Assembly: GCA_903874275.1 (NCBI GenBank)
Contig: CAIQRS010000216.1
Span: 1-39,656, forward strand
Direction of reading: 5' to 3'
DNA length: 39,656 nucleotides
Source of the DNA: an uncultured Anaeromyxobacter sp.
GTDB taxonomy: Bacteria > Myxococcota > Myxococcia > Myxococcales > Anaeromyxobacteraceae
Shown: positions 22,237-24,130 of the stretch, piece after piece
How positions within the stretch are numbered: position 1 is the first letter of the stretch
Layout: every line of letters starts with the position of its first letter
Position numbers and translations under genes: made by a program
Notes under the pieces: model-generated
Databases searched by the model: none
Told to the model about the DNA's origin: nothing
The model's input: only the letters and a program-made list of their open reading frames with translations

Positions 22237-22761
22237 GTGGCGGAGCAGAAGGAGAAGTGGATCCAGTGGGTGGCGCTCACCACCACCATCCTGGCGGTCA
22301 GCGCGGCCATCAGCTCGCTGAAGGGCGCCAACTTCGCCACGCAGGTCCAGCTCAAGAACACGCAGGAGGCGAACCGCTGGGCCTACTACCAGGCGAAGAG
22401 CCTGAAGCAGAACCTGGCCGAGTTGGAGCGGGAGCACATGGGGGTGCTGGCGCTGGAGGCCCGCACGCCCGAGGGGCGCGGCCAGGCCGAGAAGGCGCTC
22501 CACCGCGCCACCGGGGAGGCGCAGCGCTACGAGACGGAGAAGCGGGAGATCAAGATCGAGGCGGAGAAGCTCGCCACCGAGCAGGCCGAGCTGAAACGGC
22601 ACGGGGGCTCGTTCGGCCTGGCCGTGATGCTGCTGCAGATCGCCATCATGATGTCGTCGGTGGGCGCGCTCATCAAGAAGCCAGTCATGTGGTACGTCGG
22701 GCTCCTGTTCGGCGCGGGCGGGCTGGGGTACATGGCGAACGGCCTGTGGGGGTGGTTCTAG
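22237..22761 (+). CDS. DUF4337-like membrane protein
   Basis: A 174-residue protein with one N-terminal membrane helix (WIQWVALTTTILAVSAAISS), a soluble charged helical middle (about 30-120, with KNTQEANRWAYYQAKSLKQN), and two C-terminal helices (FGLAVMLLQIAIMMSSVGAL and MWYVGLLFGAGGLGYMANGL). This layout, with 'WAYYQAKS' after the first helix, fits the DUF4337 family of unknown function. The GTG start has GGGAG upstream. The stop is followed at once by a perfect 7-bp hairpin. Confidence 0.75.
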   Translation: MAEQKEKWIQWVALTTTILAVSAAISSLKGANFATQVQLKNTQEANRWAYYQAKSLKQNLAELEREHMGVLALEARTPEGRGQAEKALHRATGEAQRYETEKREIKIEAEKLATEQAELKRHGGSFGLAVMLLQIAIMMSSVGALIKKPVMWYVGLLFGAGGLGYMANGLWGWF

Positions 22762-22777
22762 GTCCGCGGCGCGGACC
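22761..22777 (+). terminator. Hairpin after the DUF4337-like gene
   Basis: Perfect inverted repeat GGTCCGC (22761-22767), loop GGC, GCGGACC (22771-22777). It begins at the last base of the DUF4337-like stop codon. There is no T-run. It may be a terminator, or the first member of the hairpin-rich stretch that continues to 22985. Confidence 0.4.
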
Positions 22778-22794
22778 GTCGGGCAGATCACACC

Positions 22795-22985
22795 AAGGAG
22801 GGGTTCACATGGTGAACCGCGACAGGGATGTCGCGTTTCGTCCGGGCGAAACTCCCCCGAGCCGCCCGGTGCGGGAGGCAGGCCAGCCGCCAGGCGGGGA
22901 GGAGGTGAGCGGGCGGTACGCGGGGAACCCGGTCGTGGGCCAGACCTGCTCCGTCTACTGCGTAGACGTCGCTGTATGAGGCGAC
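22795..22985 (+). other. Hairpin-dense region, candidate structured RNA
   Basis: Three perfect hairpins abut without a spare base: stem GGTTCAC/GTGAACC with loop ATG (22802-22818), stem GCGACA/TGTCGC with GNRA-type loop GGGA (22819-22834), and stem GTTTCG/CGAAAC with loop TCCGGG (22835-22852). A fourth, CGTCTAC/GTAGACG with loop TGC (22952-22968), and a weaker GTCGC/GCGAC (22968-22985) close the region; the middle is very G+C-rich with several possible pairings. An excellent Shine-Dalgarno (AAGGAGG, 22795-22801) precedes the first hairpin, whose loop is an ATG. This could be a structured RNA, a translational switch for a small peptide, or a DNA binding site. I cannot match it to a known RNA family. 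Confidence 0.55.
22809..22979 (+). CDS. Possible 56-residue peptide gene
   Basis: AAGGAGG at 22795-22801, eight bases before ATG 22809, is one of the best ribosome binding sites in the window. The frame encodes 56 residues: a charged, proline-rich N-terminal part ([27 protein letters not shown]) and a short C-terminus with two cysteines and Ser/Thr ([13 protein letters not shown]). That leader-plus-small-core outline is reminiscent of ribosomally made, modified peptides, but no modification enzyme is nearby. Against it being coding, third-position GC (about 82%) is lower than in neighbouring genes, and the sequence is dominated by inverted repeats. It overlaps the convergent cysteine desulfurase by 25 bases. 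Confidence 0.35.
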
Positions 22986-24130
22986 ATCTCCCTCAGCTTG
23001 GTCGCCTTCTCGACGACCAGCCGCGCCGCGTGGTCCACCTCCTCCTCGGTGTTGAAGCGGCCGAGGCCGAAGCGGATGGAGGAGTGGGCGAGCTCGTCGG
23101 AAACCCCCATGGCCCGCAGGACGTACGACGGCTCGAGCGATGCCGAGGTGCACGCCGACCCGCTGCTCACCGCCACGTCCCTCATGGCGATCATGAGCGC
23201 CTCCCCCTCCACGTGGGCAAAGCTCAGGTTCAGGTTCCCGGGCAGCCGCCGTTCGAGGCTTCCGTTCACCGTCACCCGATCGAGCCCGGCCAGGATGGCC
23301 CGGCGCAGCCGCTCCCGCAGCGCCAGGATGCGCGGCGCCTCTGCGGGCATCTCCTCGCGCGCCAGCGCAGCCGCCCTCCCGAACCCCACGATGCCGGGCA
23401 CGTTGAGCGTCCCGGAGCGGTAGCCGCGCTCGTGCCCTCCCCCGTCGATCTGCCCGAGGAGCCGCGCCCGGGGGCGGCGCCGCACGTAGAGCGCCCCCAC
23501 TCCCTTCGGCCCGTACATCTTGTGCGCCGAGAGCGAGACCAGGTCGGCGCTGGCCGCCTCCACGTCGAAGGGGATCCGCCCCAGCGACTGCACCGCGTCG
23601 GTGTGGAAGAGGACCCCCTTCTCGCGGGTGATCCGCCCGATCTCCTCCACGGGAAGCACCGTCCCCACCTCGTTGTTGGCGTGCATCACCGAGACCAGCA
23701 CGGTGTCGGGGCGGATGGCGGCGCGCACCGCCTCGGGGTCCACGAGGCCCTCCCGGCTCACCGGCAGCACGGTCACCTCGAACCCCTCGCGCGCCAGTGC
23801 CGCCATCGGGTCGAGCACGGCCTTGTGCTCGATGGCGGTGGTGACCAGGTGGCGCCCCTTCGCGGCGTGGAAGCGGGCCACCCCCTTCACGGCCAGGTTG
23901 TCCGACTCGGTGGCGCCGCTCGTCCAGACGATCTCGCGGGCGGTCGCGCCGATGAGACGCGCCACCTCCTCGCGCGCCTCCTCGACCGCCTCCTCGGCCT
24001 TCCAGCCGAAGGAGTGGCTCTTCGAGGCGGCGTTTCCGAAACGTTCCGTGAAGTACGGGAGCATGCCCTCGAGGACGCGCGGGTCGACCTGCGTCGTCGA
24101 GTGGCAGTCCATGTAGATGGGGAGCTTCAT
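22955..24130 (-). CDS. iscS: Cysteine desulfurase (IscS/NifS type)
   Basis: A 391-residue PLP enzyme that takes sulfur from cysteine for Fe-S cluster and thio-cofactor synthesis. Visible: N-terminal [21 protein letters not shown], substrate histidine region [13 protein letters not shown] lysine K204 in [24 protein letters not shown], and the sulfur-accepting loop [21 protein letters not shown] with C327. The 'SSGSACTS' loop and overall length indicate the class I IscS/NifS group. No iscR, iscU or other cluster-assembly gene is next to it. A -10-like TATAGA (24153-24148) lies 17 bases before the ATG. The final codons are inside a perfect inverted repeat (22952-22968). Confidence 0.93.

Follow-up and report, generated by a model that had tools for sequence, protein, structure and literature searches.

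A triple hairpin in an Anaeromyxobacter genome as a probable copy of a dispersed palindromic DNA repeat within the remnant of an HNH cassette

Three abutting hairpins in the window

In an uncultured Anaeromyxobacter sp., the ribosome-site-like sequence AAGGAGG (22795-22801, plus strand, read directly) is immediately followed by a hairpin exposing an ATG in its loop and by two further hairpins, raising the question of whether this spot represents a translational switch, a structured RNA or a DNA element. The window analyzed comprises 39,656 bases and corresponds to contig 216 of the organism's genome (G000, 5.07 Mb in 285 contigs). Exactly at the coordinates given in the initial annotation, three touching perfect hairpins take up all 51 bases between 22802 and 22852 of the plus strand. 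Hairpin 1, GGTTCAC-ATG-GTGAACC (22802-22818), and hairpin 2, GCGACA-GGGA-TGTCGC (22819-22834), belong to a repeat, here termed B, and are deduced from the sequence itself, the alignment of B copies, covariation and the DNA fold. Hairpin 3, GTTTCG-TCCGGG-CGAAAC (22835-22852), is a palindrome, termed C, that also follows B at other loci and is found in the linkers of HNH genes.

When scanning the window for chains of three abutting perfect hairpins (stem of at least 6, loop of 3-8), the window gave one place and 40 dinucleotide-preserving shuffles gave none, and allowing gaps of up to 3 did not change this, which confirms the earlier claim of a structure beyond chance. Single hairpins, on the other hand, amount to 156 versus a shuffle mean of 165.4 and are thus at chance level, so that the chain alone is unusual. 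While this single-hairpin frequency suits a chance origin in hairpin-rich sequence of a high-GC genome, the probability of such an origin is practically nil, as the chain is absent from all 40 shuffles and 17 further aligned B copies occur across three genomes, a recurrence already refuting chance. Folded as DNA, the 51 nt adopt exactly the three hairpins at -17.3 kcal/mol (z -5.3), with none of 200 shuffles being as good. The three hairpins also form in a 67-nt RNA (z -2.4, 5 of 200 shuffles), whereas the minimum-energy fold of the 225-nt segment 22761-22985 as RNA prefers other pairings and loses all three (z -1.8, 9 of 200). A T-run 3' of the hairpins is not present. In line with the initial statement that no known RNA family has this outline, Rfam 15 gave nothing above the gathering cut-off at the hairpins (M23 RNA at 19.6 bits versus a cut-off of 41.2), the sole match in the rest of the window being a tRNA elsewhere.

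Repeat B and its copies

The 225-nt segment is a mosaic of four units, A (22761-22788), B (22789-22834), C (22829-22896) and D (22895-22975). Searching G000 with the entire segment resulted in at least 27 places, the window included (40 of 126 candidates scored), each matching different sub-parts. Repeat B was defined as a head, CACACCAAGGAGG (22789-22801, plus strand), plus hairpins 1 and 2, and a covariance model (R1) was trained on 10 of the 12 copies in G000. At E-values of 7e-7 or better, R1 detects at least 12 copies in G000, at least 5 in G001 and at least 1 in G002, two genomes from the genus of G000, and none in G003; as about 150 candidates were scored in each of the 41 genomes searched, these copy numbers are minima. 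Outside the genus, R1 matches reach E-values of 1e-4 to 8e-3 in ten genomes and are taken as chance, the sequence having been viewed for two of them. Hence, the structure does recur in relatives, namely in two congeners, and from the three options initially offered it is the DNA element that gains substance, in the form of a dispersed repeat family.

The sequence of hairpin 1 differs between copies and species. In 10 of the 12 G000 copies, it reads GGTTCACATGG(N)TGAACC, its variant at C268, or GGTTCAACTGG(C)TGAACC, while all five G001 copies show GGTTC(T/C)GCCGGC(A/G)GAAC, with GGTTCTGCCGGCAGAACC among the variants in G001. The diverged G000 copies C165b and C43 bear palindromes of their own and the GGAGTGG head also seen in G001 and G002. 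Palindrome C directly follows B as a third hairpin in four of the 12 own copies (window, C276, C87 and C169). Across all 18 copies, 91.7% of cells in the B stems as named are paired, compared to 20-47% when partners are slid by 1-3 columns. Seven cells are changed on both sides, five of them at the last pair before the hairpin 1 loop (AU 11, UA 2, UG 2, GC 1, unpaired 2). In shuffles of the alignment, the covariation score was reached in 5 of 500 and the paired percentage in 4 of 500, the number of doubly changed pairs in 288 of 500. Pairing often fails at two of the 13 positions named, of which one is at the hairpin 1 loop and the other at the hairpin 2 foot; for one pair 8 of 14 sequences are unpaired, for the other 6 of 17. 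The palindrome of B is thus retained, the covariation being modest. The compensatory changes proposed as a check on the stems are accordingly found in part: among the 10 training copies of G000 there is no two-sided change in stems 1 and 2, but a few occur between species.

The combination of AAGGAGG and loop ATG had been regarded as a possible translational switch, in which a ribosome site and the loop-1 ATG start a 56-aa protein (22809-22979) gated by the hairpins. The Shine-Dalgarno-like AAGGAGG indeed ends seven bases 5' of the ATG, the ORF is open to 22979 with units C and D remaining in the HNH frame, and the copies at C165a and C276 likewise read MVNRDT. However, an ATG is missing from loop 1 in 10 of the 18 B copies, and the other eight begin with MVNR (three), MAEP (three), MDEP (one) or MWLN (one), with open frames whose length ranges from 16 to at least 70 codons. 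The MVN, MAE and MDE frames are offset by inserted bases, their downstream peptides differ, and no common frame results; hence, the loop ATG is not a translation start. As for the supposed ribosome site, all 18 copies have GAG(G/T)GGTTC without variation and 16 of them have AAGGAG, even where B lies antisense inside open HNH genes, as is the case at C268 (G000), C49 (G002) and C137 (G001); AAGGAGG thus corresponds to the conserved head of the repeat. Given this evidence, a switch of translation is highly improbable. A small peptide, MVNRDRD..CVDVAV, was also considered and dropped, unit D being the HNH C-terminus. More generally, caution is called for, as what looks like a ribosome site plus ATG can in fact belong to a DNA repeat and form its conserved head.

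Several copies permit a view on gain and surroundings. At C103, B and an A-like hairpin are contained in net 232-268 extra nt compared to the aligned site in G001, G002 and G003, with no clean target duplication visible. The copies at C169 and at C133 of G001 lie at the same place according to one flank, next to presumably nuoI-like ORFs, the other flank being without match, and each shows the hairpin 1 type of its own genome (L068 1495-1575; L089 1499-1554), which points to gene conversion or to several insertions at a single spot. Near four copies (L062, L066, L070 and L071), a multi-copy family shares 0.4-1.2 kb at about 75-86% identity; by eye, it looks like Ser/Thr kinases. At L069 (about 1434-1505), a second short repeat adjoins B, with many matches in G001, G002 and G003 at 82-98%. 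An origin from plasmids or phages was rejected, as the 225-nt segment has no match in the plasmid and phage sequence sets.

From its position, B might be an exapted RNA, forming a structured mRNA 3' end that protects or terminates the transcripts of convergent neighbors. Two convergent genes flank the copy in the window, the one at C276 begins about 20 nt past the stop of an ORF which we take to be enoyl-CoA hydratase-like, and some 30 nt separate the end of the copy at C169 from that of its nuoI-like ORF, while REPs of other bacteria are mostly located downstream of genes, according to the part of PMC3733652 consulted. Against this stand the missing T-run, the loss of the three hairpins from the minimum-energy fold of the 225-nt RNA, the lack of two-sided changes within the own genome and the three copies inside HNH genes. 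Exaptation as RNA is therefore unlikely, albeit compatible with an identity of the triple hairpin as a copy of repeat B.

HNH cassettes and the site beside iscS

The other units of the mosaic are shared with a multi-copy gene of about 320 codons encoding an HNH domain (PF01844, 27.6 bits versus a cut-off of 21.4) and, in its N-terminal part, a stretch weakly matching DUF222 (20 bits, below the cut-off of 24.4). G000 harbors 28 matches to this gene, 18 of them long, and 19 of 24 genomes of the family show at least one match at 1e-30. Unit A (22761-22788, plus strand), consisting of the hairpin GGTCCGCG-G-CGCGGACC (22761-22777) and the tail GTCGGGCAGAT, marks HNH cassettes at their 5' end: matches of 25-28 nt stand 5' of the HNH ORFs at C32, C135 and C89, another is found at C267, and a perfect A-type hairpin precedes the ATG by 231-251 nt in 6 of the 18 own HNH genes, with imperfect A-like sequence discernible by eye before others. 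Unit C (22829-22896, plus strand), made up of the palindrome followed by CTCCCCCGAGCCGCCCGG and further sequence in the HNH reading frame, is common to HNH sequence and has matches of 79% and 82% in the linkers of two HNH ORFs, C89 and C65, respectively. Its closest match (89%), however, is outside the linker, 5' of the C89 HNH ORF and beside an A unit, where this C-like stretch is perhaps itself a remnant. Unit D (22895-22975, plus strand), finally, is the 3' end of the cassette, encoding the HNH C-terminus, as deduced from sequence matches and from the iscS junction of congeners. Pieces of HNH cassettes, for which 16 of the 18 own cassettes were used in the scan (L044 and L047 left out), lie within 400 nt of 8 of the 18 B copies, two of these pieces being weak (31 nt at C103 and 28 nt at C142), while no recognizable piece was found within this distance for the other 10. 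In a different context, five HNH genes are cut at the same codon in the HNH domain, after ILC or its equivalent, as observed at L033, L038, L044, L047 and L048, which contain HNH 3' parts, and at L010 and L023. The cutting sequence is palindromic, TTATGCCGC...GCGGCATAA, and runs to the contig ends, as if it were a mobile element inserting site-specifically in HNH genes.

In the window, the mosaic is located between a gene for a 174-aa DUF4337 protein (22237-22761, plus strand; PF14235, 157.6 bits) and, convergent with it, a cysteine desulfurase gene (22955-24130, minus strand; PF00266, 286 bits) which we take to be iscS-type. The first G of unit A also serves as the final base of the TAG codon that closes the DUF4337 gene, and the palindrome of unit D, GTCTACTGCGTAGAC (22953-22967), gives on its other strand the last codons and stop of iscS, of which the last six codons plus stop lie inside unit D. 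The iscS genes of the window, G002 and G003 share a Pro codon followed by seven residues and the stop. At the orthologous site of G003, an HNH gene is present between iscS and the DUF4337 gene, its 5' part with unit A missing, and in G002 an HNH gene directly follows iscS and is cut by the contig end. G001 has no HNH gene at this place, for which loss or replacement is assumed, but shows a different palindrome of the same type, TTTCGCCTGGGCGAAAC. Since G002 and G003 have an HNH gene at the same iscS junction, and since unit A corresponds to the 5' end of HNH cassettes, unit D to their 3' end and unit C to HNH linkers, the 215 nt from 22761 to 22975 are best read, on these sequence comparisons, as a miniature remnant of an HNH cassette with B in its middle. 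Taken together, the triple hairpin is very probably one copy of the genus-restricted dispersed palindromic DNA repeat B joined to palindrome C, inside the 215-nt remnant of a multi-copy DUF222-like/HNH cassette once residing between the DUF4337 gene and iscS. At this site, its present effect is probably a structured 3' end between convergent genes plus the iscS stop and little else. With respect to the neighboring gene, iscS in this genus ends soon after the residues MSP (window 22955-22990; L113-L117, L119), the proteins of G004, G005 and G006 being about 20 residues longer; in the latter three genomes, a presumably iscU-like gene follows iscS at once, and the insertion may have cut the isc operon.

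The link between palindromes and HNH genes extends beyond this site. For the linker analysis, 40 HNH loci were taken, leaving out L184, L185 and L202, which are without ORF, and combined with the 18 own and 3 further ones to 58 genes. A first rule for delimiting the linker missed 26 of the 58, with 12 of its 32 linkers at p < 0.05, whereas the second rule skipped 12, of which 11 were measured by the first rule and one (L108) by neither. With the second rule, perfect palindromes with arms of at least 8 bp were found in 21 of 46 HNH linkers (ten genomes), compared to none of 46 equally long N-terminal stretches and 4 of 46 just after the linker; 21 of the 46 linkers beat codon shuffles at p < 0.05. 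Adding the 11 linkers measured under the slightly different rule, three of them with such arms, results in 24 of 57, although HNH copies within one genome are related and these counts are thus not independent. Eleven genes of G022, three linkers of G002 and gene L197 of G007 have no 8-bp arm and were all counted. The palindromes vary by genus, for example, GGTTCAACTGTTGAACC-type sequences in G006, G017 and G019 and CGGACTTCGCCGGCGAAGTCCG in five G007 copies.

Palindrome C is present in the HNH linkers of C65 and C41, and hairpin 3 of the window codes for FRPGET in the HNH frame, with FRPDET, IRPGEL and VHPGEL in relatives, including several matched changes in both arms. In the set of 13 distinct hairpin 3 sequences, 84.6% of positions are paired versus 78.0% in shuffles (13 of 1000), and the two-sided changes were reached by 99 of 1000 shuffles; the alignment therefore suggests a modest signal of paired change. 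A further palindrome, E, was followed by a pattern for its tail, modeled after GTCCTACCGGTAGGAC, GTCCAACCGGTTGGAC and others, which matches 18 times in G000, 6 times in G001, not in G002 and 3 times in G003, compared to no match for the pattern read backwards. HNH coding sequence lies within 400 nt of 12 of these 27 matches and is not near the other 15; at least three (L159, L160 and L167) have no palindrome before the tail, and by eye palindrome E often starts with CGTCC. On contig 161 of G000, six E copies (L152, L154, L161, L162, L163 and L169) are assembled within about 10.5 kb, with no HNH coding sequence within 400 nt. A 400-kb sample of G006 contains the linker palindrome GTTCAAC(N)GTTGAAC six times, five times within HNH matches and once 47 nt beyond the end of such a match, where the long open frame probably continues. 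An equally long sample of G007 has ACTTCGCCGGCGAAGT once, in an HNH gene, and the looser pattern GGTTCA-N2-8-TGAACC twice outside the HNH matches listed. Judged from these 400-kb samples of two other genera, free palindrome copies seem to be a feature of the window's genus.

B could also be neutral debris, that is, palindromes left from decayed HNH cassettes and kept by template-switch correction between their arms, not by selection or movement. The copies in the window, at C109 and at C87 are located in deletion derivatives of HNH cassettes, and in both genera sampled the own linker palindromes were seen in HNH genes only. Pointing in the opposite direction, 10 of the 18 B copies are without an HNH piece within 400 nt, the C103 copy resides in DNA gained versus three congeners, and the copies at C169 and at C133 of G001 share their place by one flank while each bears the hairpin 1 of its own genome. 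Debris is rather unlikely but, like exaptation, compatible with the assignment to repeat B.

Known repeat systems and possible ways of spreading

Bacteria commonly carry small palindromic repeats, and for REPs the usually proposed engine is a RAYT transposase. A single match to Y1_Tnp was found in each of G000, G001 and G002 (C245, C7 and C128; L112, L111 and L110), and this IS200-like gene, bearing an HPH motif by eye, is at a conserved chromosomal place with the same neighbors in the three species and is apparently not mobile. Against a cut-off of 23 bits, the protein of G000 reaches 23.0 in the genome search and 21.9 in hmmscan. At an E-value of 0.001, Y1_Tnp is present in G000-G002 and absent from G003, the same pattern as for B, while at 0.01 weak matches are obtained in 22 of the 24 family genomes, G003 included. 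No B copy lies within 1.5 kb on either side of the Y1_Tnp loci of G000-G002, the best R1 score being 8.5 bits with filters off. The head of B contains GGAG, known as a REP head, which was the reason for considering a RAYT-driven REP. Among the words of the portions of PMC2817692 and PMC3733652 covered, none begins with GGAG, which may still sit inside longer sequences. According to the accessible part of PMC2817692, RAYT genes invariably stand between two inverted REPs, and REP copy numbers usually exceed 100 per genome, although some REPs have tens of copies. As in the REP/RAYT systems described there and the GTAG family of PMC3733652, as far as these sources were available, the palindromes in Anaeromyxobacter are short and dispersed, have a conserved 5' head, lie near gene 3' ends and sometimes inside genes, give neighbors TAG stops by their ends, and keep the palindrome while the sequence differs. 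B deviates from these systems in its head, AGGAG(G/T)GG instead of GT(A/G)G, in its low number of at least 12 copies in G000, in being a composite of two to three abutting hairpins, and in a Y1 gene at one conserved place that is not flanked by B. Owing to the latter and to the weak Y1 matches throughout the family, an assignment as RAYT-driven REP was left unproven.

Other known elements show partial resemblance. The presence of palindromes both within open protein genes and between genes is reminiscent of the Rickettsia palindromic elements and the CGTC-tagged repeats, as treated in the available part of PMC3733652; unlike in Rickettsia, the hosts here are one multi-copy HNH family, the palindromes are placed in the interdomain linker and B is inserted antisense. 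Like MITEs, the element is small and non-coding and goes back to a larger cassette with a gene, of which the remnant in the window keeps both ends; in contrast to MITEs, the ends A and D appear, by inspection, to be different hairpins and not mutual terminal inverted repeats. The cassette gene itself resembles the DUF222/HNH repeat genes, presumably of the 13E12 type, in being multi-copy with an N-terminal DUF222-like stretch and a C-terminal HNH domain, but differs by a DUF222 score below the cut-off and by palindromic linkers and A/D hairpin ends, features of DUF222/HNH genes not found in print. Likewise, no earlier description of these repeats was found in the literature covered, most subscription journals lying outside this coverage. 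The best reading is hence that repeat B is an HNH-linked dispersed bacterial palindromic repeat, of which the kind is known and the HNH-linked form is new.

Regarding its mode of action, we infer with roughly even confidence that B is a non-autonomous, REP-like element which acts as DNA and has no role in translation. Its hairpins, extruded or single-stranded, would then be the substrate of whatever copies or inserts B. It is also conceivable, though rather improbable, that the linker palindrome of the HNH endonuclease is its own recognition or copying signal. Through cutting or hairpin-primed gene conversion, the nuclease would in that case spread such hairpins both along with its gene and in free form, as in B, without any transposase. 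If such a self-tagged nuclease exists, the coupling of codon choices within the linker (CGT..GAC, CGC..GGC and CAC..GGT) would reflect a constraint at the DNA level. In any case, a set of palindromes in Anaeromyxobacteraceae-like genomes shares sequences with the linker of a multi-copy HNH gene and, in one genus, is found free between genes; provided that the nuclease recognizes these palindromes, repeats of this type would have a further route of spreading.
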